64,000 nucleotides of DNA from Peronospora farinosa. Its lineage: Eukaryota > Oomycota > Peronosporomycetes > Peronosporales > Peronosporaceae. Location: the NCBI GenBank assembly GCA_947646735.1, contig CANTFK010000666.1, positions 496,001 to 560,000 of the forward strand. The letters are read 5' to 3'. This document shows, in pieces, positions 4,189 through 64,000 of the stretch (the stretch's first letter is position 1; every line of letters begins with the position of its first letter). The notes beneath the pieces are model-generated. The model saw nothing but the letters and a program-made list of their open reading frames with translations. It ran no database searches and was not told where the DNA came from. Made by a program: the position numbers and the translations under genes.

Positions 4189-5421
4189 TGTGGTGGAGCG
4201 GGGTTCACAAAATTTCTGATGTGACCCTGGCTCTCCACTGGCGCCCGGACAACCGACTATCGGAGGGGGTACTCCGTTTCCGTGTATAGCAATTCCTTCC
4301 TCACCTTGTGTACCCGTCGGTAGGGCGGGTAGCACTCTTCTCGGTGGACTCGAGTTGATGCTGAACTTGACCGTGGTTGATATTGGTTGGGGTTCGATCA
4401 CGCGGGAATCTTCACGCGATCGAGGGTTACTTGGGGGGGCTCTATACGAGTCGCCCTGATCTCTCTTGAGATCGCCTTGTCCAAAAATGTAGATACTTGA
4501 TCCACTTGTTACACTTGACCTTCTGACCACTTGAGCCGTCTCGCGATCTTGTGCCTTGTCCTTTACGTGATACTGCGTCCAATCGCAGGCGAAGTTTATT
4601 TGTGAGAGGTCTTGTAATCCCTGGCCAAACAATCCAGGGATATCACTTGTTTGAGCGTAGCAGAAGCTCTTGATCGTCGGGGGCCAAAGTTATCCGCCCG
4701 GAAGAGAAGTCTGCGTGCGTGCTTAGAAGTAAAAAAAAACTCTGTTAAATGTTAACCAATCAAATACCCAAAACCTATGATCTTGCCTATCGGTAGCCCA
4801 GGATCTACTGCCGCGTGTCGCCTTCTTGGAAATAAATCAGACTTGCTATGTGGTCCACTTCAAATACTGTGTCGATCCACTTTTGTCGATCCAGTTTTGT
4901 CGATCCTGTTTTGTCGATCCTGTTTTATCGATCCAGTTTTGTCGATCCTAATTTGTCGATCCTGTTTTGTCGATCCTGTTTTGTCGATCCTGTTTTGTCG
5001 ATCCAGTTTTGTCGATCCTGTTTTGTCGATCCTGTTTTGTCGATCCAGTTTTGTCGATCCTGTTTTGTCGATCCAGTTTTGTCGATCCAGTTTTGTCGAT
5101 CCAGTTTTGTCGATCCAGTTTTGTCGATCTGGTTTTGTCGATCCAGTTTTGTCGATCCGGTTTTGTCGATCTGGTTTTGTCGATCCGGATTTATCGATCC
5201 GGTTTCTGGATCGAGGTTTCGATCCGATCCTCCTGGATCGCGACTGTGGTGTGTGGACCACACCCAATCCTTTTTCGATCCATATTCTTCTGTGTTCTTC
5301 ACACCGTTACTCCCCCTTCCAACCATCTCGCATGCCTTATTGACCAATCGGAGCGCAGGATTGTGGATCGACGACATTTTTTCGATCGATCCCTTTCAAA
5401 TTATTAGATCGCTTTACCACA
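4189..5421. mobile_element. 1233-bp LTR-type insertion in element A
   Basis: The insertion starts TGTGGTGGAGC and ends GCTTTACCACA. The first and last six bases are inverted repeats (TGTGGT/ACCACA), and the block is flanked by AGGC on both sides (4185-4188, 5422-5425). Element B is uninterrupted at the matching place (near 44605), which fixes the borders. No retroviral coding motifs are seen inside, so it is best read as a long solo LTR of another family. It contains a 14-bp minisatellite and splits the antisense ORF. A non-LTR origin cannot be excluded, because the target duplication is only four bases. Confidence 0.7.
4869..5202. repeat. 14-bp minisatellite, about 24 units
   Basis: The unit TTTTGTCGATCCAG repeats head to tail with variants at the last bases (CAG, CTG, CGG, TGG) and a few TTTTATCGAT units. 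Every unit carries the palindrome-like core TCGATC. Because 14 is not a multiple of three and the unit lacks stops, several frames stay open on both strands. These are not genes. Confidence 0.95.
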
Positions 5422-21548: not shown

Positions 21549-21608
21549 GGCCCCCCCCCCCCGGGGGGGGCCCCCCCGGGGGGGGGGGGGGAAGGGGGGG
21601 GGGTTTCC

Positions 21609-21639
<31 letters not shown>
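21549..21639. repeat. poly-C / poly-G tract, probably an assembly artefact
   Basis: About 90 bases consist almost only of C or G runs, with two A and three T bases. It alternates C and G blocks and ends in a run of nearly 30 G. Such a pattern is more typical of consensus error or a filled gap than of genomic DNA. Proline-rich and glycine-rich frames across it are meaningless. Confidence 0.85.
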
Positions 21640-39858: not shown

Positions 39859-42800
39859 GTGATCGAACAAATGAGTAGCATAGTCCCTGAGGTTCCGAAA
39901 GGTCGGGCCTCAACCCTTTTGGTCTATAGCGTTCGAGTACGAGGCTATGACCAAGTGATGACTCTTCTCGTGGATTCGGGTGCATCACAAAACTTTGTGA
40001 AACTCGCGGCTCTGAAAAAGAGTCCGGCGAGTTATGAGTCTCTTTGCCAGGATGGCAAGCGAGAAGACGCGATCGCTCGTTCAGCGAACGGCGCGCATGT
40101 AAAATCGGAGGGAGTTCAAGTTGAACTCGCCTTCAGTTTCAGTGACTTCTCTTGTAAAGAGAAGTTCACAGTGCTAGGCATGGAGAGTCCGTATGACCTC
40201 ATCCTAGGCATGCCTTGGTTGGCTAAACACCAGCCATGGATAGACTGGCGTACACGCACAGTCGCTAGCTCTACGCAAGACACCGGAAAGGATGTGCTCT
40301 TGAGAGAGGCTTATGTGGCTGATGCTGTGTCCAACACATTCGAGGGTGCTATGACGGTATGTCCATCGGCACCAGGAACTACCCAGCTTGAAAAGAGTGG
40401 TGTAGTTGGAATTGCCCTGGTAGAAAGCCAGGTGACACAAATTCCTACCCAGCTCGAGGAGACTGGTGTAGTGAATGGGACGATGACAAGTTGTCATGCG
40501 TCCAATGTTCTTGCACAGAGCCGAGAGCCTGTGGCAGTTGATGGTGGGCTGACAGGAAGTCAAGCGCCACAAGAACTGGCACAGAGCCAAGAGCCTGGTG
40601 CGGTTGGAAGGAGTGCGTTAGCTGAGATAGCAACAACACCTTCTTCCAGGTCAAAGGTCGTGGTGACTCGAAGAACGAGCACCATACGTATTAAGACGAT
40701 CAAGGGCACGTCGAAACGAGTGACCCTTGGATCTGTATCAGTCCAAGAGGACGGACCTACGAACGAGTTGTTCGAGGGCGTCGAAGACAAGATGCCGGAG
40801 GCATCCTCAGTTGAGGTGCTCCAACTTGTCTTGGCATCTGCCGAGGAGATAGTAAATCTCTCGGAGATGACGTGGGATTTTTTCCTGTCCGAATTAAAGG
40901 AAGGAAAGATCCACGAGATAGTTGCAACAGTTCCAGAAGAGAACGCGGTGGACTGTTTCTCTTCATCCACAATGGATGAGAGCGTCTTGGAGACCGACAA
41001 AAAGAAACGGTTCGCTGCTCAAGGCTGGGAATACTTGAAGGACAGCCCGTTCTATGATGTTCTGTGGAAACTATCAGGCTCTCATGAGAGATACTGATGT
41101 AGCCAAAACGGCAGTAAGCACCCCAAGCGGTATGCTGTGGGAGTGGCTTGTGATGCCACAAGGGTTGAAAAATGCTCCGGCAACATTCAACCGAGTGGTG
41201 GCTCACGTGATGCGTCAGCACCGTGCCTACGCGCCCCATTACTTTGACGATGTATTCGTGCATAGTAGGGCGGAGGACGGTCTGAGCGCGATAGAGTCGC
41301 ACAAGCGTCATCTAGACGCTGTGCTTGAGACTCTGGGTGACGCCCAATTATACGTGAACTTGCAAAAGTGCGTAATAGGGGTCCCCGGGATACCGGTACT
41401 GGGCTGCATCGTAGGTGCACATGGTGTACGAGCAGACCCAGAAAAGGTAAAGGCTGTAAAGGAATGGCCAGTCCCATGACACGTGAAGGATCTGCGCCAA
41501 TTCCTTGTGCTCGCTAATTACTTGCATAAGTACAGCAAGAAGGATGACAACGGCGTTGACCGTGTCATTTCTTATCAGTCTCGGCTTTTAAAAGCTGCAG
41601 AGCTGAATTACCTAGTGCATGACAAGGAGCTACTTTCAATTAAGTATGCCCTTGTGAAGTTTCGGGTGCACCTCTTGGGCACCGAACTTTTTGTGTTTTA
41701 TACGGATCATGCATCATTGCGGACCGCTATAAACTCACCGCGCCTCTCGCCTAGGATGCCGAGATGCCTGACATTCTTCTCTGAGTTTAATTTCAAAGTT
41801 GAATATAAGCCGGGTAAGTCGAATGTCTTGGCTGACGCGTTATCGTGCAGACCAGACTTCGAGGCAAGACACCAGGATAGTGTGTCTCGTGCGAAAGCTC
41901 AAGTTGAGTCGTTAACATTGGCAGCCATGAAGGCCTACCATGTGACGAGCATAATGGCCTCCGATATCAAGGAGTGTTACAGTCAGGACGAACATTGTCG
42001 CCTGCTGTTGGATCATTTTGGTGAACGAAAGGTTATCCTTCCGTCGCACCTAAAAGCGAAGCTTTATCGCTTTAGTTACAGTGATGGCCTATTATGGCAT
42101 CAACTGTCACCCTGTGATCCCTTGAGAATCTATGTCCCTCATGACACAGATCTCAAGCTGATGATACTTCACGAGTGCCATGATTCGCCATCTAGTGGGC
42201 ATCTGGGCCGTGAAAAGACATTCTTACGAGTGTCAGAGGAATTTTGGTGGCCCCACCTATATCGGTGGGTGGCCAAATATATTCGCTCTTTCGAAGAGTG
42301 TCAGATCATAAAGCCTGCACCTTCGAACAGTGCGCCACTAAAGCAGCTGCTGCTTCCAACTAAATGCTGGAAGTCGGTCAGTTTGGACTTCATGTTTGGC
42401 TTACCGCCTGACCATAAAGGCAGGACGGAGCTCGTCGTCTTTGTAGACAGACTGAGCAAGATGGTGCATTTGGCACCATGTAGCACCAAGATCACAGGAA
42501 AAGAGGCTGCCCTCTTGTTTCTGGATCACGTGTATCGACTACACGGGATGCTTGAGTCCATAGTATCGGACCGGGATCCGCGTTTTACGTCGGGTTTTTG
42601 GCGACATGTGTTTGAGCTGCTGGATAGCAAGATCCACATGTCAACCGCTGATCATCCCCAGACCGATGGCCAAACAGAACGGGCCAATCGAGTCGTGGCG
42701 GATGTGTTGCGTACAGTAGCGACTCCTAAAGAGTGGAGCAAGCAATTGCCATTCGTGTAGTTCGCTATTAATAACAGTGTTCACGCCAGTACGGGTGAAA

Positions 42801-47426: not shown

Positions 47427-48284
47427 ATGGAATCAGCGGGTGATGATTTCCGCCATTTGAGTGACCTTAAATGGAATGCGGTACAGCATATGGATGAAAC
47501 CATCGGCAACCCTGCCGTTGGTGCCATGTTGCTCTCTCTTAGCGGAGAATAACAACATGCAACCATCGCCAAGTTCATACAACATGAACTTGGCGAAGTT
47601 GTAAAAAAGCTCACCTTGCTACAGGAGCAAGGTTCTCAACAGGTAGACCTGTTGAGAGAACAAGGCGCTCAACAAGCTGACTTGTTGATGCAGCAGGGTG
47701 CTAAACAGTCTAAACTGCTGAGACAACAGCAAGTCCTTGAAGATTGATGTCTCCAAGTATAAGGCAGTCGAATGCGACTCCTTCTGACGATGGTTTGTCG
47801 AATGCGACTCCTTGTGGAGATGGTTCGTCGCATCAATGACGATGCGATGACGGTCAAGTTCGCCATGTCGAACTTGGCAGGACGTGCCAAAACTTGGGCC
47901 TTAGGGCTCAAACTGCATGACCCATACGTTGTTCCAACGTATGATGTCTTCAAGGCGCGGCTCAAATACACGTTCGAACCGCCCCGCGCCGAATTTAGGG
48001 CTCGGGATGAGCTCCAAGATTTGCAACAGGGTAAGTGTGATATACACGCTTACGCCCAACACGTACGAAACCTCGTTAGTTGTATCGTGCTGAACCCAAT
48101 AACTGAACACACGCAGGTTACTGTGTTCATCAAAAGCCTGACAGATGATACTACCTGTTCCGCTTGAAACTAGAATCGCTAGATCAAGCGATCTCTCCAG
48201 AGGAAGAGGAAAACTTAAGCCTACAACAGGCTCACGTCCACTCAGAGTCCTATCGTCTACCGCGACGACAGAAGGTCGGAGGTC
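47427..48284 (+). pseudogene. gag: broken and truncated gag of element C
   Basis: Begins at an ATG (MESAGDDFRHLSDLKW) and soon meets an in-frame stop (after LLSLSGE). Next comes an 11-residue repeat rich in Leu and Gln (LLQEQGSQQVD, LLREQGAQQAD, LLMQQGAKQSK). Another stop follows (47746). The capsid part then reads KFAMSNLAGRAKTWALGLK, YDVFKARLKYTFEPP and RDELQDLQQGKCDIHAYAQH, the typical gag domain of Ty3/gypsy elements. The frame breaks again near 48160 and ends at the array junction in PRRQKVGG, before any zinc knuckle. Confidence 0.85.
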
Positions 48285-48452
48285 CGGTGATGTGAGTTGA
48301 AGGCAGGTGTCGGTGCGTACTGCCCGATTGTGTGTGGCCTGTGTGGGGGTCCGTGTAGGACGGTGTATGCGTATTAGACTTTGTACGTCATTGGTGTCTA
48401 GAATACTGTAAATTCGTTTTTTGTGATGTGTGGTGATGATAGTGGCGAGCCT

Positions 48453-48534
48453 GTCAGTTTGCCCGAGTGGTCTAAGGGGTTACGTTCAGGTCGTAATGTT
48501 TTCGAACGCGTGGGTTCAAATCCCACAGCTGACA
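48453..48534 (+). tRNA. tRNA-Leu (CAG), array copy 1
   Basis: An 82-nt gene that folds as a class II tRNA. The acceptor stem is GTCAGTT with AGCTGAC (one G-T pair) and the discriminator base is A. The D stem is CCC/GGG around GAGTGGTCTAA. The anticodon arm is TTACG-TTCAGGT-CGTAA, anticodon CAG, decoding CUG leucine. The long variable arm is a GTT-TTCG-AAC hairpin. The T arm is GTGGG-TTCAAAT-CCCAC. The B box GGTTCAAATCC is good. The A box TGCCCGAGTGG has C where G is usual, with a compensating change in the D stem. No intron is present and CCA is not encoded. The variable arm contains TTTT, a possible weak Pol III stop. Next copy is 544 bp on; spacer tract CCTCCAA; 5' flank CGAGCC. Confidence 0.93.
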
Positions 48535-48996
48535 AATCCTTTGCTGCCACCACAACAAAATCCTGCCACGCCTGCTCACACGCTGTCGTTTCTGCTGCTG
48601 TTTGCTGGTCTCATCCTCCAAGACACCATCACGGCTGATGGTCCGTCGTCGGTCATTCCACCAAGCAGCTCAACATTTGCTTGACACCTTGCCGACGACT
48701 TTGGTTATGTGTTGCCTCATCATTGAGCTCATAGACGATTGGCAGATAGCCGTAATATTCGGGAGGCAGCAGCAGGCTGAAGCGCGTGGTGAATGTGATG
48801 GATGACGCAAGAAAGATGTCAAATTGTACGGTGATGTGAGTCGAAGGCAGGTGTCGGTGCGTACTGCCCGATTGTGTGTGGCCTGTGTGGGGGTCCGTGT
48901 AGGACGGTGTATGCGTATTAGACTTTGTACGTCATTGGTGTCTAGAATACTGTAAATTCGTTTTTTGTGATGTGTGGTGATGATAGTGTCGAGGCT

Positions 48997-49078
48997 GTCA
49001 GTTTGCCCGAGTGGTCTAAGGGGTTACGTTCAGGTCGTAATGTTTTCGAACGCGTGGGTTCAAATCCCACAGCTGACA
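48997..49078 (+). tRNA. tRNA-Leu (CAG), array copy 2
   Basis: Next copy 544 bp on. Spacer tract CCTCCAA. The 5' flank is the rare TCGAGGC form, shared only with copy 21. Confidence 0.93.
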
Positions 49079-49540
49079 AATCCTTTGCTGCCACCACAAC
49101 AAAATCCTGCCACGCCTGCTCACACGCTGTCGTTTCTGCTGCTGTTTGCTGGTCTCATCCTCCAAGACACCATCACGGCTGATGGTCCGTCGTCGTTCAT
49201 TCCACCAAGCAGCTCAACATTTGCTTGACACCTTGCCGACGACTTTGGTTATGTGTTGCCTCATCATTGAGCTCATAGACGATTGGCAGATAGCCGTAAT
49301 ATTCGGGAGGCAGCAGCAGGCTGAAGCGCATGGTGAATGTGATGGATGACGCAAGAAAGATGTCAAATTGTACGGTGATGTGAGTCGAAGGCAGGTGTCG
49401 GTGCGTACTGCCCGATTGTGTGTGGCCTGTGTGGGGGTCCGTGTAGGACGGTGTATGCGTATTAGACTTTGTACGTCATTGGTGTCTAGAATACTGTAAA
49501 TTCGTTTTTTGTGATGTGTGGTGATGATAGTGGCGAGCCT

Positions 49541-49622
49541 GTCAGTTTGCCCGAGTGGTCTAAGGGGTTACGTTCAGGTCGTAATGTTTTCGAACGCGTG
49601 GGTTCAAATCCCACAGCTGACA
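49541..49622 (+). tRNA. tRNA-Leu (CAG), array copy 3
   Basis: Next copy 552 bp on. Spacer tract ACTGTCCAAAAGCCA. 5' flank CGAGCC. The unit has a private base change (ATAGATGATTGG). Confidence 0.93.
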
Positions 49623-50092
49623 AATCCTTTGCTGCCACCACAACAAAATCCTGCCACGCCTGCTCACACGCTGTCGTTTCTGCTGCTGTTTGCTGGTCTC
49701 ATACTGTCCAAAAGCCAGACACCATCACGGCTGATGGTCCGTCGTCGGTCATTCCACCAAGCAGCTCAACATTTGCTTGACACCTTGCCGACGACTTTGG
49801 TTATGTGTTGCCTCATCATTGAGCTCATAGATGATTGGCAGATAGCCGTAATATTCGGGAGGCAGCAGCAGGCTGAAGCGCGTGGTGGAGGTGATGGATG
49901 ACGCAAGAAAGATGTCAAGTTGTACGGTGATGTGAGTCGAAGGCAGGTGTCGGTGCGTACTGCCCGATTGTGTGTGGCCTGTGTGGGGGTCCGTGTAGGA
50001 CGGTGTATGCGTATTAGACTTTGTACGTCATTGGTGTCTAGAATACTGTAAATTCGTTTTTTGTGATGTGTGGTGATGATAGTGGCGGGCCT

Positions 50093-50174
50093 GTCAGTTT
50101 GCCCGAGTGGTCTAAGGGGTTACGTTCAGGTCGTAATGTTTTCGAACGCGTGGGTTCAAATCCCACAGCTGACA
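50093..50174 (+). tRNA. tRNA-Leu (CAG), array copy 4
   Basis: Next copy 555 bp on, the longest unit. Spacer tract ACTGTCCAAAAGGCCCA. The 5' flank is the unique CGGGCC. Private change GCCGACTAC. Confidence 0.93.
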
Positions 50175-50647
50175 AATCCTTTGCTGCCACCACAACAAAA
50201 TCCTGCCACGCCTGCTCACACGCTGTCGTTTCTGCTGCTGTTTGCTGGTCTCATACTGTCCAAAAGGCCCAGACACCATCACGGCTGATGGTCCGTCGTC
50301 GGTCATTCCACCAAGCAGCTCAACATTTGCTTGACACCTTGCCGACTACTTTGGTTATGTGTTGCCTCATCATTGAGCTCATAGACGATTGGCAGATAGC
50401 CGTAATATTCGGGAGGCAGCAGCAGGCTGAAGCGCATGGTGGAGGTGATGGATGACGCAAGAAAGATGTCAAATTGTACGGTGATGTGAGTCGAAGGCAG
50501 GTGTCGGTGCGTACTGCCCGATTGTGTGTGGCCTGTGTGGGGGTCCGTGTAGGACGGTGTATGCGTATTAGACTTTGTACGTCATTGGTGTCTAGAATAC
50601 TGTAAATTCGTTTTTTGTGATGTGTGGTGATGATAGTGGCGAGGCCT

Positions 50648-50729
50648 GTCAGTTTGCCCGAGTGGTCTAAGGGGTTACGTTCAGGTCGTAATGTTTTCGA
50701 ACGCGTGGGTTCAAATCCCACAGCTGACA
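50648..50729 (+). tRNA. tRNA-Leu (CAG), array copy 5
   Basis: Next copy 552 bp on. Spacer tract ACTGTCCAAAAGCCA, as in copy 3. 5' flank CGAGGCC (one base longer). Confidence 0.93.
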
Positions 50730-51199
50730 AATCCTTTGCTGCCACCACAACAAAATCCTGCCACGCCTGCTCACACGCTGTCGTTTCTGCTGCTGTTTGC
50801 TGGTCTCATACTGTCCAAAAGCCAGACACCATCACGGCTGATGGTCCGTCGTCGTTCATTCCACCAAGCAGCTCAACATTTGCTTGACACCTTGCCGACG
50901 ACTTTGGTTATGTGTTGCCTCATCATTGAGCTCATAGACGATTGGCAGATAGCCGTAATATTCGGGAGGCAGCAGCAGGCTGAAGCGCATGGTGAATGTG
51001 ATGGATGACGCAAGAAAGATGTCAAATTGTACGGTGATGTGAGTCGAAGGCAGGTGTCGGTGCGTACTGCCCGATTGTGTGTGGCCTGTGTGGGGGTCCG
51101 TGTAGGACGGTGTATGCGTATTAGACTTTGTACGTCATTGGTGTCTAGAATACTGTAAATTCGTTTTTTGTGATGTGTGGTGATGATAGTGGCGAGGCT

Positions 51200-51281
51200 G
51201 TCAGTTTGCCCGAGTGGTCTAAGGGGTTACGTTCAGGTCGTAATGTTTTCGAACGCGTGGGTTCAAATCCCACAGCTGACA
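51200..51281 (+). tRNA. tRNA-Leu (CAG), array copy 6
   Basis: Next copy 554 bp on. Spacer tract ACTGTCCAAAAGGACAA. The 5' flank GCGAGGC is unique. Confidence 0.93.
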
Positions 51282-51753
51282 AATCCTTTGCTGCCACCAC
51301 AACAAAATCCTGCCACGCCTGCTCACACGCTGTCGTTTCTGCTGCTGTTTGCTGGTCTCATACTGTCCAAAAGGACAAGACACCATCACGGCTGATGGTC
51401 CGTCGTCGTTCATTCCACCAAGCAGCTCAACATTTGCTTGACACCTTGCCGACGACTTTGGTTATGTGTTGCCTCATCATTGAGCTCATAGACGATTGGC
51501 AGATAGCCGTAATATTCGGGAGGCAGCAGCAGGCTGAAGCGCATGGTGAATGTGATGGATGACGCAAGAAAGATGTCAAATTGTACGGTGATGTGAGTCG
51601 AAGGCAGGTGTCGGTGCGTACTGCCCGATTGTGTGTGGCCTGTGTGGGGGTCCGTGTAGGACGGTGTATGCGTATTAGACTTTGTACGTCATTGGTGTCT
51701 AGAATACTGTAAATTCGTTTTTTGTGATGTGTGGTGATGATAGTGGCGAGCCT

Positions 51754-51835
51754 GTCAGTTTGCCCGAGTGGTCTAAGGGGTTACGTTCAGGTCGTAATGT
51801 TTTCGAACGCGTGGGTTCAAATCCCACAGCTGACA
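51754..51835 (+). tRNA. tRNA-Leu (CAG), array copy 7
   Basis: Next copy 549 bp on. Spacer tract ACTGTCCAAAA. 5' flank CGAGCC. Confidence 0.93.
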
Positions 51836-52302
51836 AATCCTTTGCTGCCACCACAACAAAATCCTGCCACGCCTGCTCACACGCTGTCGTTTCTGCTGCT
51901 GTTTGCTGGTCTCATACTGTCCAAAAGACACCATCACGGCTGATGGTCCGTCGTCGTTCATTCCACCAAGCAGCTCAACATTTGCTTGACACCTTGCCGA
52001 CGACTTTGGTTATGTGTTGCCTCATCATTGAGCTCATAGACGATTGGCAGATAGCCGTAATATTCGGGAGGCAGCAGCAGGCTGAAGCGCATGGTGAAGG
52101 TGATGGATGACGCAAGAAAGATGTCAAATTGTACGGTGATGTGAGTCGAAGGCAGGTGTCGGTGCGTACTGCCCGATTGTGTGTGGCCTGTGTGGGGGTC
52201 CGTGTAGGACGGTGTATGCGTATTAGACTTTGTACGTCATTGGTGTCTAGAATACTGTAAATTCGTTTTTTGTGATGTGTGGTGATGATAGTGGCGAGGC
52301 CT

Positions 52303-52384
52303 GTCAGTTTGCCCGAGTGGTCTAAGGGGTTACGTTCAGGTCGTAATGTTTTCGAACGCGTGGGTTCAAATCCCACAGCTGACA
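52303..52384 (+). tRNA. tRNA-Leu (CAG), array copy 8
   Basis: Next copy 551 bp on. Spacer tract ACTCTCCAAACCA. 5' flank CGAGGCC. Confidence 0.93.
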
Positions 52385-52853
52385 AATCCTTTGCTGCCAC
52401 CACAACAAAATCCTGCCACGCCTGCTCACACGCTGTCGTTTCTGCTGCTGTTTGCTGGTCTCATACTCTCCAAACCAGACACCATCACGGCTGATGGTCC
52501 GTCGTCGTTCATTCCACCAAGCAGCTCAACATTTGCTTGACACCTTGCCGACGACTTTGGTTATGTGTTGCCTCATCATTGAGCTCATAGACGATTGGCA
52601 GATAGCCGTAATATTCGGGAGGCAGCAGCAGGCTGAAGCGCATGGTGAATGTGATGGATGACGCAAGAAAGATGTCAAATTGTACGGTGATGTGAGTCGA
52701 AGGCAGGTGTCGGTGCGTACTGCCCGATTGTGTGTGGCCTGTGTGGGGGTCCGTGTAGGACGGTGTATGCGTATTAGACTTTGTACGTCATTGGTGTCTA
52801 GAATACTGTAAATTCGTTTTTTGTGATGTGTGGTGATGATAGTGGCGAGGCCT

Positions 52854-52935
52854 GTCAGTTTGCCCGAGTGGTCTAAGGGGTTACGTTCAGGTCGTAATGT
52901 TTTCGAACGCGTGGGTTCAAATCCCACAGCTGACA
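52854..52935 (+). tRNA. tRNA-Leu (CAG), array copy 9
   Basis: Next copy 547 bp on. Spacer tract ACGTCCAAAA. 5' flank CGAGGCC. Confidence 0.93.
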
Positions 52936-53400
52936 AATCCTTTGCTGCCACCACAACAAAATCCTGCCACGCCTGCTCACACGCTGTCGTTTCTGCTGCT
53001 GTTTGCTGGTCTCATACGTCCAAAAGACACCATCACGGCTGATGGTCCGTCGTCGTTCATTCCACCAAGCAGCTCAACATTTGCTTGACACCTTGCCGAC
53101 GACTTTGGTTATGTGTTGCCTCATCATTGAGCTCATAGACGATTGGCAGATAGCCGTAATATTCGGGAGGCAGCAGCAGGCTGAAGCGCATGGTGGAGGT
53201 GATGGATGACGCAAGAAAGATGTCAAATTGTACGGTGATGTGAGTCGAAGGCAGGTGTCGGTGCGTACTGCCCGATTGTGTGTGGCCTGTGTGGGGGTCC
53301 GTGTAGGACGGTGTATGCGTATTAGACTTTGTACGTCATTGGTGTCTAGAATACTGTAAATTCGTTTTTTGTGATGTGTGGTGATGATAGTGGCGAGCCT

Positions 53401-53482
53401 GTCAGTTTGCCCGAGTGGTCTAAGGGGTTACGTTCAGGTCGTAATGTTTTCGAACGCGTGGGTTCAAATCCCACAGCTGACA
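53401..53482 (+). tRNA. tRNA-Leu (CAG), array copy 10
   Basis: Next copy 549 bp on. Spacer tract ACTCTCCAAACA. 5' flank CGAGCC. Confidence 0.93.
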
Positions 53483-53949
53483 AATCCTTTGCTGCCACCA
53501 CAACAAAATCCTGCCACGCCTGCTCACACGCTGTCGTTTCTGCTGCTGTTTGCTGGTCTCATACTCTCCAAACAGACACCATCACGGCTGATGGTCCGTC
53601 GTCGTTCATTCCACCAAGCAGCTCAACATTTGCTTGACACCTTGCCGACGACTTTGGTTATGTGTTGCCTCATCATTGAGCTCATAGACGATTGGCAGAT
53701 AGCCGTAATATTCGGGAGGCAGCAGCAGGCTGAAGCGCATGGTGAATGTGATGGATGACGCAAGAAAGATGTCAAATTGTACGGTGATGTGAGTCGAAGG
53801 CAGGTGTCGGTGCGTACTGCCCGATTGTGTGTGGCCTGTGTGGGGGTCCGTGTAGGACGGTGTATGCGTATTAGACTTTGTACGTCATTGGTGTCTAGAA
53901 TACTGTAAATTCGTTTTTTGTGATGTGTGGTGATGATAGTGGCGAGCCT

Positions 53950-54031
53950 GTCAGTTTGCCCGAGTGGTCTAAGGGGTTACGTTCAGGTCGTAATGTTTTC
54001 GAACGCGTGGGTTCAAATCCCACAGCTGACA
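53950..54031 (+). tRNA. tRNA-Leu (CAG), array copy 11
   Basis: Next copy 549 bp on. Spacer tract ACTCTCGCAAAA, the only one with CTCGC. 5' flank CGAGCC. Confidence 0.93.
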
Positions 54032-54498
54032 AATCCTTTGCTGCCACCACAACAAAATCCTGCCACGCCTGCTCACACGCTGTCGTTTCTGCTGCTGTTT
54101 GCTGGTCTCATACTCTCGCAAAAGACACCATCACGGCTGATGGTCCGTCGTCGTTCATTCCACCAAGCAGCTCAACATTTGCTTGACACCTTGCCGACGA
54201 CTTTGGTTATGTGTTGCCTCATCATTGAGCTCATAGACGATTGGCAGATAGCCGTAATATTCGGGAGGCAGCAGCAGGCTGAAGCGCATGGTGAATGTGA
54301 TGGATGACGCAAGAAAGATGTCAAATTGTACGGTGATGTGAGTCGAAGGCAGGTGTCGGTGCGTACTGCCCGATTGTGTGTGGCCTGTGTGGGGGTCCGT
54401 GTAGGACGGTGTATGCGTATTAGACTTTGTACGTCATTGGTGTCTAGAATACTGTAAATTCGTTTTTTGTGATGTGTGGTGATGATAGTGGCGAGCCT

Positions 54499-54580
54499 GT
54501 CAGTTTGCCCGAGTGGTCTAAGGGGTTACGTTCAGGTCGTAATGTTTTCGAACGCGTGGGTTCAAATCCCACAGCTGACA
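54499..54580 (+). tRNA. tRNA-Leu (CAG), array copy 12
   Basis: Next copy 545 bp on. Spacer tract CCTCCAA; the uniform part of the array begins here. 5' flank CGAGCC. Confidence 0.93.
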
Positions 54581-55043
54581 AATCCTTTGCTGCCACCACA
54601 ACAAAATCCTGCCACGCCTGCTCACACGCTGTCGTTTCTGCTGCTGTTTGCTGGTCTCATCCTCCAAGACACCATCACGGCTGATGGTCCGTCGTCGTTC
54701 ATTCCACCAAGCAGCTCAACATTTGCTTGACACCTTGCCGACGACTTTGGTTATGTGTTGCCTCATCATTGAGCTCATAGACGATTGGCAGATAGCCGTA
54801 ATATTCGGGAGGCAGCAGCAGGCTGAAGCGCATGGTGAATGTGATGGATGACGCAAGAAAGATGTCAAATTGTACGGTGATGTGAGTCGAAGGCAGGTGT
54901 CGGTGCGTACTGCCCGATTGTGTGTGGCCTGTGTGGGGGTCCGTGTAGGACGGTGTATGCGTATTAGACTTTGTACGTCATTGGTGTCTAGAATACTGTA
55001 AATTCGTTTTTTGTGATGTGTGGTGATGATAGTGGCGAGGCCT

Positions 55044-55125
55044 GTCAGTTTGCCCGAGTGGTCTAAGGGGTTACGTTCAGGTCGTAATGTTTTCGAACGC
55101 GTGGGTTCAAATCCCACAGCTGACA
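55044..55125 (+). tRNA. tRNA-Leu (CAG), array copy 13
   Basis: Next copy 544 bp on. Spacer tract CCTCCAA. 5' flank CGAGGCC. Confidence 0.93.
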
Positions 55126-55587
55126 AATCCTTTGCTGCCACCACAACAAAATCCTGCCACGCCTGCTCACACGCTGTCGTTTCTGCTGCTGTTTGCTGGT
55201 CTCATCCTCCAAGACACCATCACGGCTGATGGTCCGTCGTCGTTCATTCCACCAAGCAGCTCAACATTTGCTTGACACCTTGCCGACGACTTTGGTTATG
55301 TGTTGCCTCATCATTGAGCTCATAGACGATTGGCAGATAGCCGTAATATTCGGGAGGCAGCAGCAGGCTGAAGCGCATGGTGAATGTGATGGATGACGCA
55401 AGAAAGATGTCAAATTGTACGGTGATGTGAGTCGAAGGCAGGTGTCGGTGCGTACTGCCCGATTGTGTGTGGCCTGTGTGGGGGTCCGTGTAGGACGGTG
55501 TATGCGTATTAGACTTTGTACGTCATTGGTGTCTAGAATACTGTAAATTCGTTTTTTGTGATGTGTGGTGATGATAGTGGCGAGCCT

Positions 55588-55669
55588 GTCAGTTTGCCCG
55601 AGTGGTCTAAGGGGTTACGTTCAGGTCGTAATGTTTTCGAACGCGTGGGTTCAAATCCCACAGCTGACA
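55588..55669 (+). tRNA. tRNA-Leu (CAG), array copy 14
   Basis: Next copy 544 bp on. Spacer tract ACTCCAA, first of five in a row. 5' flank CGAGCC. Confidence 0.93.
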
Positions 55670-56131
55670 AATCCTTTGCTGCCACCACAACAAAATCCTG
55701 CCACGCCTGCTCACACGCTGTCGTTTCTGCTGCTGTTTGCTGGTCTCATACTCCAAGACACCATCACGGCTGATGGTCCGTCGTCGTTCATTCCACCAAG
55801 CAGCTCAACATTTGCTTGACACCTTGCCGACGACTTTGGTTATGTGTTGCCTCATCATTGAGCTCATAGACGATTGGCAGATAGCCGTAATATTCGGGAG
55901 GCAGCAGCAGGCTGAAGCGCATGGTGAATGTGATGGATGACGCAAGAAAGATGTCAAATTGTACGGTGATGTGAGTCGAAGGCAGGTGTCGGTGCGTACT
56001 GCCCGATTGTGTGTGGCCTGTGTGGGGGTCCGTGTAGGACGGTGTATGCGTATTAGACTTTGTACGTCATTGGTGTCTAGAATACTGTAAATTCGTTTTT
56101 TGTGATGTGTGGTGATGATAGTGGCGAGCCT

Positions 56132-56213
56132 GTCAGTTTGCCCGAGTGGTCTAAGGGGTTACGTTCAGGTCGTAATGTTTTCGAACGCGTGGGTTCAAAT
56201 CCCACAGCTGACA
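56132..56213 (+). tRNA. tRNA-Leu (CAG), array copy 15
   Basis: Next copy 544 bp on. Spacer tract ACTCCAA. 5' flank CGAGCC. Confidence 0.93.
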
Positions 56214-56675
56214 AATCCTTTGCTGCCACCACAACAAAATCCTGCCACGCCTGCTCACACGCTGTCGTTTCTGCTGCTGTTTGCTGGTCTCATACTCCAA
56301 GACACCATCACGGCTGATGGTCCGTCGTCGTTCATTCCACCAAGCAGCTCAACATTTGCTTGACACCTTGCCGACGACTTTGGTTATGTGTTGCCTCATC
56401 ATTGAGCTCATAGACGATTGGCAGATAGCCGTAATATTCGGGAGGCAGCAGCAGGCTGAAGCGCATGGTGAATGTGATGGATGACGCAAGAAAGATGTCA
56501 AATTGTACGGTGATGTGAGTCGAAGGCAGGTGTCGGTGCGTACTGCCCGATTGTGTGTGGCCTGTGTGGGGGTCCGTGTAGGACGGTGTATGCGTATTAG
56601 ACTTTGTACGTCATTGGTGTCTAGAATACTGTAAATTCGTTTTTTGTGATGTGTGGTGATGATAGTGGCGAGCCT

Positions 56676-56757
56676 GTCAGTTTGCCCGAGTGGTCTAAGG
56701 GGTTACGTTCAGGTCGTAATGTTTTCGAACGCGTGGGTTCAAATCCCACAGCTGACA
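56676..56757 (+). tRNA. tRNA-Leu (CAG), array copy 16
   Basis: Next copy 545 bp on. Spacer tract ACTCCAA. 5' flank CGAGCC. Confidence 0.93.
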
Positions 56758-57220
56758 AATCCTTTGCTGCCACCACAACAAAATCCTGCCACGCCTGCTC
56801 ACACGCTGTCGTTTCTGCTGCTGTTTGCTGGTCTCATACTCCAAGACACCATCACGGCTGATGGTCCGTCGTCGTTCATTCCACCAAGCAGCTCAACATT
56901 TGCTTGACACCTTGCCGACGACTTTGGTTATGTGTTGCCTCATCATTGAGCTCATAGACGATTGGCAGATAGCCGTAATATTCGGGAGGCAGCAGCAGGC
57001 TGAAGCGCATGGTGAATGTGATGGATGACGCAAGAAAGATGTCAAATTGTACGGTGATGTGAGTCGAAGGCAGGTGTCGGTGCGTACTGCCCGATTGTGT
57101 GTGGCCTGTGTGGGGGTCCGTGTAGGACGGTGTATGCGTATTAGACTTTGTACGTCATTGGTGTCTAGAATACTGTAAATTCGTTTTTTGTGATGTGTGG
57201 TGATGATAGTGGCGAGGCCT

Positions 57221-57302
57221 GTCAGTTTGCCCGAGTGGTCTAAGGGGTTACGTTCAGGTCGTAATGTTTTCGAACGCGTGGGTTCAAATCCCACAGCTGA
57301 CA
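57221..57302 (+). tRNA. tRNA-Leu (CAG), array copy 17
   Basis: Next copy 544 bp on. Spacer tract ACTCCAA. 5' flank CGAGGCC. Confidence 0.93.
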
Positions 57303-57764
57303 AATCCTTTGCTGCCACCACAACAAAATCCTGCCACGCCTGCTCACACGCTGTCGTTTCTGCTGCTGTTTGCTGGTCTCATACTCCAAGACACCATCAC
57401 GGCTGATGGTCCGTCGTCGTTCATTCCACCAAGCAGCTCAACATTTGCTTGACACCTTGCCGACGACTTTGGTTATGTGTTGCCTCATCATTGAGCTCAT
57501 AGACGATTGGCAGATAGCCGTAATATTCGGGAGGCAGCAGCAGGCTGAAGCGCATGGTGAATGTGATGGATGACGCAAGAAAGATGTCAAATTGTACGGT
57601 GATGTGAGTCGAAGGCAGGTGTCGGTGCGTACTGCCCGATTGTGTGTGGCCTGTGTGGGGGTCCGTGTAGGACGGTGTATGCGTATTAGACTTTGTACGT
57701 CATTGGTGTCTAGAATACTGTAAATTCGTTTTTTGTGATGTGTGGTGATGATAGTGGCGAGCCT

Positions 57765-57846
57765 GTCAGTTTGCCCGAGTGGTCTAAGGGGTTACGTTCA
57801 GGTCGTAATGTTTTCGAACGCGTGGGTTCAAATCCCACAGCTGACA
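57765..57846 (+). tRNA. tRNA-Leu (CAG), array copy 18
   Basis: Next copy 545 bp on. Spacer tract ACTCCAA. 5' flank CGAGCC. Confidence 0.93.
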
Positions 57847-58309
57847 AATCCTTTGCTGCCACCACAACAAAATCCTGCCACGCCTGCTCACACGCTGTCG
57901 TTTCTGCTGCTGTTTGCTGGTCTCATACTCCAAGACACCATCACGGCTGATGGTCCGTCGTCGTTCATTCCACCAAGCAGCTCAACATTTGCTTGACACC
58001 TTGCCGACGACTTTGGTTATGTGTTGCCTCATCATTGAGCTCATAGACGATTGGCAGATAGCCGTAATATTCGGGAGGCAGCAGCAGGCTGAAGCGCATG
58101 GTGAATGTGATGGATGACGCAAGAAAGATGTCAAATTGTACGGTGATGTGAGTCGAAGGCAGGTGTCGGTGCGTACTGCCCGATTGTGTGTGGCCTGTGT
58201 GGGGGTCCGTGTAGGACGGTGTATGCGTATTAGACTTTGTACGTCATTGGTGTCTAGAATACTGTAAATTCGTTTTTTGTGATGTGTGGTGATGATAGTG
58301 GCGAGGCCT

Positions 58310-58391
58310 GTCAGTTTGCCCGAGTGGTCTAAGGGGTTACGTTCAGGTCGTAATGTTTTCGAACGCGTGGGTTCAAATCCCACAGCTGACA
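58310..58391 (+). tRNA. tRNA-Leu (CAG), array copy 19
   Basis: Next copy 545 bp on. Spacer tract CCTCCAA. 5' flank CGAGGCC. Confidence 0.93.
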
Positions 58392-58854
58392 AATCCTTTG
58401 CTGCCACCACAACAAAATCCTGCCACGCCTGCTCACACGCTGTCGTTTCTGCTGCTGTTTGCTGGTCTCATCCTCCAAGACACCATCACGGCTGATGGTC
58501 CGTCGTCGTTCATTCCACCAAGCAGCTCAACATTTGCTTGACACCTTGCCGACGACTTTGGTTATGTGTTGCCTCATCATTGAGCTCATAGACGATTGGC
58601 AGATAGCCGTAATATTCGGGAGGCAGCAGCAGGCTGAAGCGCATGGTGAATGTGATGGATGACGCAAGAAAGATGTCAAATTGTACGGTGATGTGAGTCG
58701 AAGGCAGGTGTCGGTGCGTACTGCCCGATTGTGTGTGGCCTGTGTGGGGGTCCGTGTAGGACGGTGTATGCGTATTAGACTTTGTACGTCATTGGTGTCT
58801 AGAATACTGTAAATTCGTTTTTTGTGATGTGTGGTGATGATAGTGGCGAGGCCT

Positions 58855-58936
58855 GTCAGTTTGCCCGAGTGGTCTAAGGGGTTACGTTCAGGTCGTAATG
58901 TTTTCGAACGCGTGGGTTCAAATCCCACAGCTGACA
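58855..58936 (+). tRNA. tRNA-Leu (CAG), array copy 20
   Basis: Next copy 544 bp on. Spacer tract CCTCCAA. 5' flank CGAGGCC. Confidence 0.93.
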
Positions 58937-59398
58937 AATCCTTTGCTGCCACCACAACAAAATCCTGCCACGCCTGCTCACACGCTGTCGTTTCTGCTGC
59001 TGTTTGCTGGTCTCATCCTCCAAGACACCATCACGGCTGATGGTCCGTCGTCGTTCATTCCACCAAGCAGCTCAACATTTGCTTGACACCTTGCCGACGA
59101 CTTTGGTTATGTGTTGCCTCATCATTGAGCTCATAGACGATTGGCAGATAGCCGTAATATTCGGGAGGCAGCAGCAGGCTGAAGCGCATGGTGAATGTGA
59201 TGGATGACGCAAGAAAGATGTCAAATTGTACGGTGATGTGAGTCGAAGGCAGGTGTCGGTGCGTACTGCCCGATTGTGTGTGGCCTGTGTGGGGGTCCGT
59301 GTAGGACGGTGTATGCGTATTAGACTTTGTACGTCATTGGTGTCTAGAATACTGTAAATTCGTTTTTTGTGATGTGTGGTGATGATAGTGTCGAGGCT

Positions 59399-59480
59399 GT
59401 CAGTTTGCCCGAGTGGTCTAAGGGGTTACGTTCAGGTCGTAATGTTTTCGAACGCGTGGGTTCAAATCCCACAGCTGACA
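59399..59480 (+). tRNA. tRNA-Leu (CAG), array copy 21
   Basis: Next copy 545 bp on. Spacer tract CCTCCAA. 5' flank TCGAGGC, as in copy 2 about 10.4 kb away. Confidence 0.93.
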
Positions 59481-59943
59481 AATCCTTTGCTGCCACCACA
59501 ACAAAATCCTGCCACGCCTGCTCACACGCTGTCGTTTCTGCTGCTGTTTGCTGGTCTCATCCTCCAAGACACCATCACGGCTGATGGTCCGTCGTCGTTC
59601 ATTCCACCAAGCAGCTCAACATTTGCTTGACACCTTGCCGACGACTTTGGTTATGTGTTGCCTCATCATTGAGCTCATAGACGATTGGCAGATAGCCGTA
59701 ATATTCGGGAGGCAGCAGCAGGCTGAAGCGCATGGTGAATGTGATGGATGACGCAAGAAAGATGTCAAATTGTACGGTGATGTGAGTCGAAGGCAGGTGT
59801 CGGTGCGTACTGCCCGATTGTGTGTGGCCTGTGTGGGGGTCCGTGTAGGACGGTGTATGCGTATTAGACTTTGTACGTCATTGGTGTCTAGAATACTGTA
59901 AATTCGTTTTTTGTGATGTGTGGTGATGATAGTGGCGAGGCCT

Positions 59944-60025
59944 GTCAGTTTGCCCGAGTGGTCTAAGGGGTTACGTTCAGGTCGTAATGTTTTCGAACGC
60001 GTGGGTTCAAATCCCACAGCTGACA
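59944..60025 (+). tRNA. tRNA-Leu (CAG), array copy 22
   Basis: Next copy 544 bp on. Spacer tract ACTCCAA. 5' flank CGAGGCC, the last of this type. Confidence 0.93.
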
Positions 60026-60487
60026 AATCCTTTGCTGCCACCACAACAAAATCCTGCCACGCCTGCTCACACGCTGTCGTTTCTGCTGCTGTTTGCTGGT
60101 CTCATACTCCAAGACACCATCACGGCTGATGGTCCGTCGTCGTTCATTCCACCAAGCAGCTCAACATTTGCTTGACACCTTGCCGACGACTTTGGTTATG
60201 TGTTGCCTCATCATTGAGCTCATAGACGATTGGCAGATAGCCGTAATATTCGGGAGGCAGCAGCAGGCTGAAGCGCATGGTGAATGTGATGGATGACGCA
60301 AGAAAGATGTCAAATTGTACGGTGATGTGAGTCGAAGGCAGGTGTCGGTGCGTACTGCCCGATTGTGTGTGGCCTGTGTGGGGGTCCGTGTAGGACGGTG
60401 TATGCGTATTAGACTTTGTACGTCATTGGTGTCTAGAATACTGTAAATTCGTTTTTTGTGATGTGTGGTGATGATAGTGGCGAGCCT

Positions 60488-60569
60488 GTCAGTTTGCCCG
60501 AGTGGTCTAAGGGGTTACGTTCAGGTCGTAATGTTTTCGAACGCGTGGGTTCAAATCCCACAGCTGACA
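60488..60569 (+). tRNA. tRNA-Leu (CAG), array copy 23
   Basis: Next copy 544 bp on. Spacer tract ACTCCAA. 5' flank CGAGCC. Confidence 0.93.
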
Positions 60570-61031
60570 AATCCTTTGCTGCCACCACAACAAAATCCTG
60601 CCACGCCTGCTCACACGCTGTCGTTTCTGCTGCTGTTTGCTGGTCTCATACTCCAAGACACCATCACGGCTGATGGTCCGTCGTCGTTCATTCCACCAAG
60701 CAGCTCAACATTTGCTTGACACCTTGCCGACGACTTTGGTTATGTGTTGCCTCATCATTGAGCTCATAGACGATTGGCAGATAGCCGTAATATTCGGGAG
60801 GCAGCAGCAGGCTGAAGCGCATGGTGAATGTGATGGATGACGCAAGAAAGATGTCAAATTGTACGGTGATGTGAGTCGAAGGCAGGTGTCGGTGCGTACT
60901 GCCCGATTGTGTGTGGCCTGTGTGGGGGTCCGTGTAGGACGGTGTATGCGTATTAGACTTTGTACGTCATTGGTGTCTAGAATACTGTAAATTCGTTTTT
61001 TGTGATGTGTGGTGATGATAGTGGCGAGCCT

Positions 61032-61113
61032 GTCAGTTTGCCCGAGTGGTCTAAGGGGTTACGTTCAGGTCGTAATGTTTTCGAACGCGTGGGTTCAAAT
61101 CCCACAGCTGACA
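61032..61113 (+). tRNA. tRNA-Leu (CAG), array copy 24
   Basis: Next copy 544 bp on. Spacer tract CCTCCAA, start of a run of five like units. 5' flank CGAGCC. Confidence 0.93.
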
Positions 61114-61575
61114 AATCCTTTGCTGCCACCACAACAAAATCCTGCCACGCCTGCTCACACGCTGTCGTTTCTGCTGCTGTTTGCTGGTCTCATCCTCCAA
61201 GACACCATCACGGCTGATGGTCCGTCGTCGTTCATTCCACCAAGCAGCTCAACATTTGCTTGACACCTTGCCGACGACTTTGGTTATGTGTTGCCTCATC
61301 ATTGAGCTCATAGACGATTGGCAGATAGCCGTAATATTCGGGAGGCAGCAGCAGGCTGAAGCGCATGGTGAATGTGATGGATGACGCAAGAAAGATGTCA
61401 AATTGTACGGTGATGTGAGTCGAAGGCAGGTGTCGGTGCGTACTGCCCGATTGTGTGTGGCCTGTGTGGGGGTCCGTGTAGGACGGTGTATGCGTATTAG
61501 ACTTTGTACGTCATTGGTGTCTAGAATACTGTAAATTCGTTTTTTGTGATGTGTGGTGATGATAGTGGCGAGCCT

Positions 61576-61657
61576 GTCAGTTTGCCCGAGTGGTCTAAGG
61601 GGTTACGTTCAGGTCGTAATGTTTTCGAACGCGTGGGTTCAAATCCCACAGCTGACA
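61576..61657 (+). tRNA. tRNA-Leu (CAG), array copy 25
   Basis: Next copy 544 bp on. Spacer tract CCTCCAA. 5' flank CGAGCC. Confidence 0.93.
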
Positions 61658-62119
61658 AATCCTTTGCTGCCACCACAACAAAATCCTGCCACGCCTGCTC
61701 ACACGCTGTCGTTTCTGCTGCTGTTTGCTGGTCTCATCCTCCAAGACACCATCACGGCTGATGGTCCGTCGTCGTTCATTCCACCAAGCAGCTCAACATT
61801 TGCTTGACACCTTGCCGACGACTTTGGTTATGTGTTGCCTCATCATTGAGCTCATAGACGATTGGCAGATAGCCGTAATATTCGGGAGGCAGCAGCAGGC
61901 TGAAGCGCATGGTGAATGTGATGGATGACGCAAGAAAGATGTCAAATTGTACGGTGATGTGAGTCGAAGGCAGGTGTCGGTGCGTACTGCCCGATTGTGT
62001 GTGGCCTGTGTGGGGGTCCGTGTAGGACGGTGTATGCGTATTAGACTTTGTACGTCATTGGTGTCTAGAATACTGTAAATTCGTTTTTTGTGATGTGTGG
62101 TGATGATAGTGGCGAGCCT

Positions 62120-62201
62120 GTCAGTTTGCCCGAGTGGTCTAAGGGGTTACGTTCAGGTCGTAATGTTTTCGAACGCGTGGGTTCAAATCCCACAGCTGAC
62201 A
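62120..62201 (+). tRNA. tRNA-Leu (CAG), array copy 26
   Basis: Next copy 544 bp on. Spacer tract CCTCCAA. 5' flank CGAGCC. Confidence 0.93.
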
Positions 62202-62663
62202 AATCCTTTGCTGCCACCACAACAAAATCCTGCCACGCCTGCTCACACGCTGTCGTTTCTGCTGCTGTTTGCTGGTCTCATCCTCCAAGACACCATCACG
62301 GCTGATGGTCCGTCGTCGTTCATTCCACCAAGCAGCTCAACATTTGCTTGACACCTTGCCGACGACTTTGGTTATGTGTTGCCTCATCATTGAGCTCATA
62401 GACGATTGGCAGATAGCCGTAATATTCGGGAGGCAGCAGCAGGCTGAAGCGCATGGTGAATGTGATGGATGACGCAAGAAAGATGTCAAATTGTACGGTG
62501 ATGTGAGTCGAAGGCAGGTGTCGGTGCGTACTGCCCGATTGTGTGTGGCCTGTGTGGGGGTCCGTGTAGGACGGTGTATGCGTATTAGACTTTGTACGTC
62601 ATTGGTGTCTAGAATACTGTAAATTCGTTTTTTGTGATGTGTGGTGATGATAGTGGCGAGCCT

Positions 62664-62745
62664 GTCAGTTTGCCCGAGTGGTCTAAGGGGTTACGTTCAG
62701 GTCGTAATGTTTTCGAACGCGTGGGTTCAAATCCCACAGCTGACA
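62664..62745 (+). tRNA. tRNA-Leu (CAG), array copy 27
   Basis: Next copy 544 bp on. Spacer tract CCTCCAA. 5' flank CGAGCC. Confidence 0.93.
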
Positions 62746-63207
62746 AATCCTTTGCTGCCACCACAACAAAATCCTGCCACGCCTGCTCACACGCTGTCGT
62801 TTCTGCTGCTGTTTGCTGGTCTCATCCTCCAAGACACCATCACGGCTGATGGTCCGTCGTCGTTCATTCCACCAAGCAGCTCAACATTTGCTTGACACCT
62901 TGCCGACGACTTTGGTTATGTGTTGCCTCATCATTGAGCTCATAGACGATTGGCAGATAGCCGTAATATTCGGGAGGCAGCAGCAGGCTGAAGCGCATGG
63001 TGAATGTGATGGATGACGCAAGAAAGATGTCAAATTGTACGGTGATGTGAGTCGAAGGCAGGTGTCGGTGCGTACTGCCCGATTGTGTGTGGCCTGTGTG
63101 GGGGTCCGTGTAGGACGGTGTATGCGTATTAGACTTTGTACGTCATTGGTGTCTAGAATACTGTAAATTCGTTTTTTGTGATGTGTGGTGATGATAGTGG
63201 CGAGCCT

Positions 63208-63289
63208 GTCAGTTTGCCCGAGTGGTCTAAGGGGTTACGTTCAGGTCGTAATGTTTTCGAACGCGTGGGTTCAAATCCCACAGCTGACA
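63208..63289 (+). tRNA. tRNA-Leu (CAG), array copy 28
   Basis: Next copy 544 bp on. Spacer tract CCTCCAA. 5' flank CGAGCC. Confidence 0.93.
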
Positions 63290-63751
63290 AATCCTTTGCT
63301 GCCACCACAACAAAATCCTGCCACGCCTGCTCACACGCTGTCGTTTCTGCTGCTGTTTGCTGGTCTCATCCTCCAAGACACCATCACGGCTGATGGTCCG
63401 TCGTCGTTCATTCCACCAAGCAGCTCAACATTTGCTTGACACCTTGCCGACGACTTTGGTTATGTGTTGCCTCATCATTGAGCTCATAGACGATTGGCAG
63501 ATAGCCGTAATATTCGGGAGGCAGCAGCAGGCTGAAGCGCATGGTGAATGTGATGGATGACGCAAGAAAGATGTCAAATTGTACGGTGATGTGAGTCGAA
63601 GGCAGGTGTCGGTGCGTACTGCCCGATTGTGTGTGGCCTGTGTGGGGGTCCGTGTAGGACGGTGTATGCGTATTAGACTTTGTACGTCATTGGTGTCTAG
63701 AATACTGTAAATTCGTTTTTTGTGATGTGTGGTGATGATAGTGGCGAGCCT

Positions 63752-63833
63752 GTCAGTTTGCCCGAGTGGTCTAAGGGGTTACGTTCAGGTCGTAATGTTT
63801 TCGAACGCGTGGGTTCAAATCCCACAGCTGACA
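63752..63833 (+). tRNA. tRNA-Leu (CAG), array copy 29
   Basis: Last copy in the window; its unit is cut by the window end at 64000. Spacer tract ACTCCAA. 5' flank CGAGCC. Confidence 0.93.
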
Positions 63834-64000
63834 AATCCTTTGCTGCCACCACAACAAAATCCTGCCACGCCTGCTCACACGCTGTCGTTTCTGCTGCTGT
63901 TTGCTGGTCTCATACTCCAAGACACCATCACGGCTGATGGTCCGTCGTCGTTCATTCCACCAAGCAGCTCAACATTTGCTTGACACCTTGCCGACGACTT

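Follow-up and report, generated by a model that had tools for sequence, protein, structure and literature searches.

Tandem arrays of transfer RNA (tRNA) genes have been described across the genomes of two oomycetes, and the two published readings conflict. The account of Phytophthora infestans treats such clusters as tRNA genes, counting 7,519 on chromosomes and 3,537 on unplaced contigs, with about 64% in one-gene arrays and 36% in two- or three-gene units, and it describes the monomeric arrays that occupy a single place as near-identical, with variants near an edge (PMC9584435). The account of Peronospora effusa, a downy mildew, reports 33–39 clusters per isolate holding about 99.6% of more than 6,000 annotated tRNA genes, and its authors class them as repeats resembling short interspersed nuclear elements (SINEs), each family having one place and being probably immobile (PMC11540230). 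Here we describe an array of this kind in a window of 64,000 nucleotides, the whole stretch of DNA analysed (C186:496001-560000), from a contig of 688,907 bases in an assembly of 46.85 Mb in 274 contigs. We consider it very probable that the array represents a working tRNA-Leu(CAG) gene in many copies, belonging to a Peronosporaceae oomycete, arranged head to tail like a satellite and kept uniform by unequal exchange. Four direct observations carry this reading: the anatomy of the locus, its confinement to arrays, a gradient of variation from edge to centre, and a contrast between gene and spacer.

The array adds one more case to a pattern known from related oomycetes. An earlier note made from the letters of this DNA (hereafter the original prediction) had held large tRNA arrays to be known mainly from Entamoeba; that claim does not stand, as they are described genome-wide in both oomycetes (PMC9584435, PMC11540230) and several more are present in this genome. 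As in the P. infestans account, the units are monomeric, head to tail, similar in length (513 nt for Cys there), and near-identical, with variants grouped at the edges (PMC9584435). Its Gln-CTG/TTG and Thr-Trp-Ser units have counterparts here; the Leu array that it names carries AAG, whereas the present genome has CAG as well as AAG, and it concerns another species, with 219 Mb of chromosomes rather than 46.85 Mb (PMC9584435). The P. effusa account likewise describes one-unit clusters (717 bp for Arg) with identical tRNA, spacers less conserved than the tRNA (94.9–98.9%), subgroups 94–98% alike, and one location per family, and ascribes the variation to non-allelic recombination (PMC11540230). 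Among the titles and first parts of abstracts listed by searches of openly licensed papers, we found no Leu(CAG) array in an oomycete.

More distant systems share fewer features. Nearly all tRNA genes of Entamoeba lie in tandem arrays with units uniform per isolate, but those units hold up to five tRNA genes, short tandem repeats stand between the genes in E. histolytica and E. dispar, and the lineage is unrelated (PMC2652664). At human 1q23.3, a tandem repeat with tRNA genes also varies in copy number, although it is described as a single locus with a 7.3-kb CTCF-bound unit and 9–43 units per allele (PMC4041453).

Anatomy of the tRNA-Leu(CAG) array

ARAGORN called 29 tRNA-Leu(CAG) genes in the window, all on the forward strand (48452-63834), and the Rfam model RF00005 recovered these 29 as well, each scoring 52.3 bits against a cut-off of 29. 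All are letter-identical over 82 nt, as the original prediction had it, and the gene is a class II tRNA with an intact cloverleaf, the covariance model aligning the whole tRNA above cut-off in every window copy. The possibility that all copies are pseudogenes, raised in the original prediction, is not what these two callers (used here rather than tRNAscan-SE) report. Between the genes lie 28 complete units of 544–555 bp, with 15 distinct sequences, and no two complete units differ by more than 10 substitutions and 11 gap columns. A 544-bp unit present 28 times at such similarity is not chance, and the predicted head-to-tail array is real. Homology to the unit starts at 48286, where 48285 had been predicted. 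The features of the array in the window are as follows.

48286..64000, forward strand: window part of the tandem array of the tRNA-Leu(CAG) unit (544–555 bp), which continues to C186:579408
48453..48534, forward strand: first tRNA-Leu(CAG) gene, 82 nt (RF00005 52.3 bits, ARAGORN; exact position)
48460..48470, forward strand: A-box-like element of the internal promoter in the first gene; position 10 is C, against G in Leu-AAG and Leu-TAG
48513..48523, forward strand: B-box GGTTCAAATCC of the first gene (exact position)
48535..48996, forward strand: first spacer, 462 bp, with no run of four or more Ts directly 3' of the gene
48961..48966, forward strand: run of six Ts lying 30 nt ahead of the second gene; no earlier run of four or more follows the first gene
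Starts at 48997, 49541, 50093, 50648, 51200, 51754, 52303, 52854, 53401, 53950, 54499, 55044, 55588, 56132, 56676, 57221, 57765, 58310, 58855, 59399, 59944, 60488, 61032, 61576, 62120, 62664, 63208, and 63752, forward strand: 28 further identical genes (RF00005 52.3 bits each, ARAGORN)
63752..63833, forward strand: final tRNA-Leu(CAG) gene within the window and number 29 of the contig's 65 (ARAGORN, RF00005; exact position)

Beyond the window, we located the right end of the array at C186:579408, 19.4 kb farther on; the contig end does not cut it. The whole array spans 35,123 bp and comprises 65 copies and a truncated 66th, in which only the first 50 bases of the gene match. Unit lengths among the 65 are mostly 544–555 bp, with some of 476–558 bp at the right edge, and 61 of the 65 genes are letter-perfect. 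We note that the copy number in the near-identical middle is an assembly-based figure and rests on the assembly. A second, unplaced contig (C170, 17,723 bases) consists solely of the unit, in 32 copies spaced 554–555 bp apart except for the first, which the contig end truncates. Its spacer is about 7% diverged from that of C186, and 21 of its 31 full-length genes are letter-perfect. The original estimate of at least 29 copies was thus sound and too low.

A search for tandem repeats with periods of up to 500 reported no short ones between the genes of the array. We considered whether the spacer holds a protein gene and rejected its longest antisense frame (160 aa, window 50320-50802), which has no Pfam match, also overlaps the tRNA antisense, and is shifted between two unit families by a 10-base indel. 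The P. effusa account reports open reading frames in the spacers, some with RXLR motifs (PMC11540230).

Confinement to arrays and uniformity of the units

Outside the two arrays, our searches of the assembly yielded no consensus gene for tRNA-Leu(CAG). Combining the CAG loop with a consensus B-box gave 96 matches in the whole assembly, all listed, of which 63 were on C186, 32 on C170, and one on C4 that was not read as a tRNA; the two C186 copies in which the B-box is altered escape this pattern, as would any CAG gene whose B-box departs from the consensus. A looser CAG pattern matched 102 times, against 10 in the control, and among the 100 matches listed, 95 lay in the arrays and five were not tRNA-like. 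Another CAG pattern run also gave 102 matches, with 95 of the 100 listed in the arrays and five elsewhere. First-look searches of the genome returned 98 candidates for the 82-nt gene and 97 for an 81-nt piece of spacer; these are the array numbers, because they equal the 65 and 32 copies, with the truncated gene added in the gene search. The 40 gene candidates and 40 spacer candidates that were scored all lie on C186 or C170. Neither gene nor spacer appears to be dispersed at the sensitivity used, and by gene, spacer, and pattern searches, the unit is held by these two contigs only. A 33-base piece of the tRNA had no match in viral contigs, and a gapped tRNA pattern had none in prokaryote genomes.

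The codon usage of the window indicates demand for a tRNA that reads CUG. CTG accounts for 51 of 259 Leu codons in seven window open reading frames (counted from stop to stop, two of them without a Pfam match above cut-off), so a CUG reader is needed. The Leu-TAG tRNA, found as single genes on C10 and C268, could in principle wobble to CUG.

Across both contigs, the 95 complete units comprise 56 distinct sequences; one is shared by 19 units and another by 13, every one of them on C186. Variation in C186 is concentrated at the edges: units 12–49 (of 64 complete) have no variable gene columns and six variable spacer columns, and most variants stand in units 3–11 and 50–64. The left-edge units carry states common to C170, including 2–10 bases of a 10-base insertion that is missing from the middle, and at the right edge, seven units of 476–499 bp carry other C170-like states. 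The four imperfect genes among the 65 copies all fall within the last 11, a bound chosen after the damaged genes had been seen. Neighbouring units resemble each other more than shuffled ones do, with a mean distance of 4.0 versus 5.5 in C186 (none of 2000 shuffles as low) and 3.5 versus 4.1 among 30 units of C170 (28 of 2000 as low; unit B01, cut by the contig end, left out). Such a gradient is expected if unequal exchange proceeds more slowly at the edges, and we therefore propose unequal exchange as the homogenizing force.

Gene and spacer differ in their conservation. The consensus sequences of C186 and C170 agree at all 82 gene sites but differ at 33 of the 462 in the spacer (one-sided Fisher test, p=0.0038; p=0.0062 without three spacer sites beside the indel). 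A near-identical gene beside a less conserved spacer suggests selection on the gene, and as far as the sequences can tell, it can be seen at the level of the family and not of every single copy. The original prediction had argued for selection or very recent amplification from a conserved fold among varying spacers; the conservation of the gene relative to the spacer upholds selection, but spacers vary little within the array.

Together, these patterns are consistent with a simple mechanism. RNA polymerase III would transcribe each unit from its internal promoter, and the product, once processed, would serve in translation as a tRNA reading CUG. Unequal exchange and gene conversion would keep the copies alike, leaving the middle of the array uniform and the edges to hold old variants and collect broken copies, and selection would hold the tRNA sequence as the spacer drifts. 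The locus would then offer a clean natural case of concerted evolution in a tRNA gene, with edge-to-centre gradients.

Weighing the gene against its alternatives

Several observations weigh against a working gene. Its 52.3 bits are the lowest score among the tRNAs of this genome that were scored (55.5 for Leu-AAG and 58.3 for Leu-TAG), and the minimum-energy fold of the single sequence is not a cloverleaf. The A-box is altered relative to Leu-AAG and Leu-TAG, with C in place of G at position 10; the B-box agrees with its consensus. None of the 96 copies has a run of more than three Ts within 30 nt downstream, so that the usual T4 is missing there, and the first run of four or more lies most often 425 or 435 nt downstream of the gene. 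On C170, pair 11-24 of the D-stem is broken in 11 of 32 copies by one common G-to-A change, which occurs in no C186 copy, and selection per copy therefore appears weak. Identical neighbours are absent from C170, where 0.33 would be expected. In the Gln array of the same genome (C247:166844-193351), 86 of 115 strict-pattern copies have G2 with G71, an acceptor mismatch, so array copies need not all be sound. Finally, the array is the sole source of this tRNA for the present assembly only, and the assembly may be incomplete.

Some of these points lose force on comparison with other genes. At positions 10 and 25, Leu-CAG has C and G, and both Leu-AAG and Leu-TAG have G and C; the D-stem pair has changed on both sides, from G-C to C-G, and pairing is therefore kept. 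The missing T4 is not peculiar to this array, because other families of the genome also have none nearby, including Lys-TTT (13 of 13), Leu-AAG (all seven examined), Glu-CTC (all four examined), Ile (2 of 2), Trp (4 of 4, with a T4 starting 28 nt on), and two of four Thr copies. Runs of four or more Ts are present downstream of Gln, Ser, Arg, Glu-TTC, His, and Leu-TAG genes (locus L024, which repeats part of the window, was left out of this comparison). Fragments of tRNAs, including Leu, have been reported from P. infestans (PMC4272539); they show that a relative expresses tRNAs and are not evidence for the present gene.

The unit might instead be a short retroelement of the SINE kind, in which the tRNA-derived head serves as the promoter of the element and not as a gene for translation. 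This has been proposed in print for the P. effusa clusters, and a tRNA-like head with a unique body of about 460 bp is within the size range given there (PMC11540230). The weak A-box, the missing T4 stop, and the Ty3/Gypsy remains on both flanks would also fit. However, no dispersed copies were found among the candidates scored, the tRNA is intact and better conserved than the spacer, no tandem simple repeat was reported inside the array, and an A-rich 3' tail is lacking, as the longest A-run in the first unit is four. A full anticodon set needs 40 or more tRNA genes. The P. effusa authors themselves state that each family keeps one place and is probably not mobile, and by our own arithmetic, their clustered fraction leaves about 24 genes outside (PMC11540230). 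These would therefore be too few for a full set. We regard a retroelement as quite improbable, and an isoacceptor whose consensus genes in this assembly were found in arrays only, with a fixed gene and a drifting spacer, makes the choice between gene and SINE testable. It also serves as a warning that such arrays should not be masked as transposable elements.

An array kept for a chromatin, boundary, or replication role, acting for instance as a tDNA insulator or fork barrier with tRNA supply secondary, would account for 65 copies at one place with retrotransposon remains on its flanks, and the P. infestans authors pose a chromatin role as a question (PMC9584435). Several tRNA families are arrayed alike on other contigs, however, and this suggests that tRNA genes are generally kept in this manner and that no single locus is special. 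None of our observations points to the insulator, fork-barrier, or structural roles raised in the original prediction, and a structural satellite seems to us quite improbable. We also think it very unlikely that the assembler multiplied one or a few real units. The identical runs in the middle and the unplaced, repeat-only C170 are what such an expansion would leave, but it would not readily give the many distinct sequences among the complete units or ordered gradients at both edges, both flanks lie within one 689-kb contig, and assembled tRNA copy numbers matched read depth in the P. infestans account (PMC9584435). A working, multicopy tRNA gene remains the reading we prefer.

Other tRNA arrays, surroundings, and host

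Other tRNA families of this genome were found by a limited look, in which 63 of 2736 first-look candidates were scored. A B-box pattern matched 927 times in the whole assembly and 88 times in the reversed control, which gives a rough figure of about 840 consensus B-boxes (the first 100 of the 927 were listed). Gln CTG/TTG units on C247 are mostly 179 bp apart, and 13 Lys-TTT genes on C229 mostly 1,170 bp apart. On C58, 54 Leu-type A-box matches stand about 728 bp apart, and the seven examined are Leu-AAG. Glu-CTC, Glu-TTC, and His-Ala arrays are present on C49, and four Thr-Ser-Trp sets on C248. The remaining copies of the Gln array are 15 with C2-G71, all TTG, and 14 with G2-C71 (13 CTG and one TTG); the mismatched copies look as if a hybrid of two recombined unit types had spread.

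These arrays allow a broader reading, which we put forward as tentative and rather doubtful: downy mildews may have handed their working tRNA set to satellite-type arrays, where the versions of a tRNA that fill the genome would be set by recombination instead of by selection acting gene by gene. The Leu(CAG) array, as the sole source of a needed tRNA whose A-box is altered (C10-G25) and which lacks a T4 stop, and the Gln array, in which most copies have the acceptor-stem mismatch of a seemingly spread recombinant, would be examples.

We also made several separate observations within the arrays. On C170, four of the 11 copies with the D-stem change stand consecutively at one end. One copy in the Gln array (L011:7734-7806, C247) has anticodon CTT, is called tRNA-Lys by ARAGORN, and, were it used, would misread codons for Lys. 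One Thr-Ser-Trp set on C248 includes a gene for U6 spliceosomal RNA (L018:4708-4812, 102.5 bits), placed between its tRNA-Ser(GCT) and tRNA-Trp(CCA) genes; the U6 scan covered L018 only. By ARAGORN, tRNA-Ala(AGC) and tRNA-His(GTG) abut without a gap (L029:236-383, C49), every 774 bp, and a two-tRNA precursor is likely because the Ala gene has no T-run of its own.

Ty3/Gypsy remains flank the C186 array on both sides. The nearest on the left ends 121 bp before the array.

47763..48164, forward strand: open piece of a decayed Ty3/Gypsy gag (PF03732 Retrotrans_gag E=2.3e-11, PF19259 Ty3_capsid E=8.8e-10), with stops around the piece

A frame with Gypsy-type RNase H and integrase (Pfam) lies at window 41480-42757. 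On the right flank, an integrase frame on the opposite strand stands about 1.0 kb past the array, with reverse-transcriptase frames beyond. A similar Gypsy-type RNase H/integrase frame at window 1141-2145 was judged by eye from its translation.

Farther left are ordinary genes, including PIP5K, an inorganic pyrophosphatase with PH and EF-hand domains, an RNase PH domain protein, and a glutathione S-transferase. Of these, the pyrophosphatase shares 93% identity with that of Peronospora destructor (88% of the query covered), 91% with that of Hyaloperonospora arabidopsidis (99% covered), and 77% with that of Pythium oligandrum. Because it is nearer to Peronospora and Hyaloperonospora than to Pythium, the host is, judged by this one protein, a Peronosporaceae oomycete, in agreement with the predicted oomycete origin, and probably a downy mildew. 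Elsewhere in the window, a minisatellite of 24 copies of a 14-bp unit occupies 4870-5205, and a tract of about 85 bp made of a C-run and a G-run (21553-21639) is possibly an assembly trouble spot.

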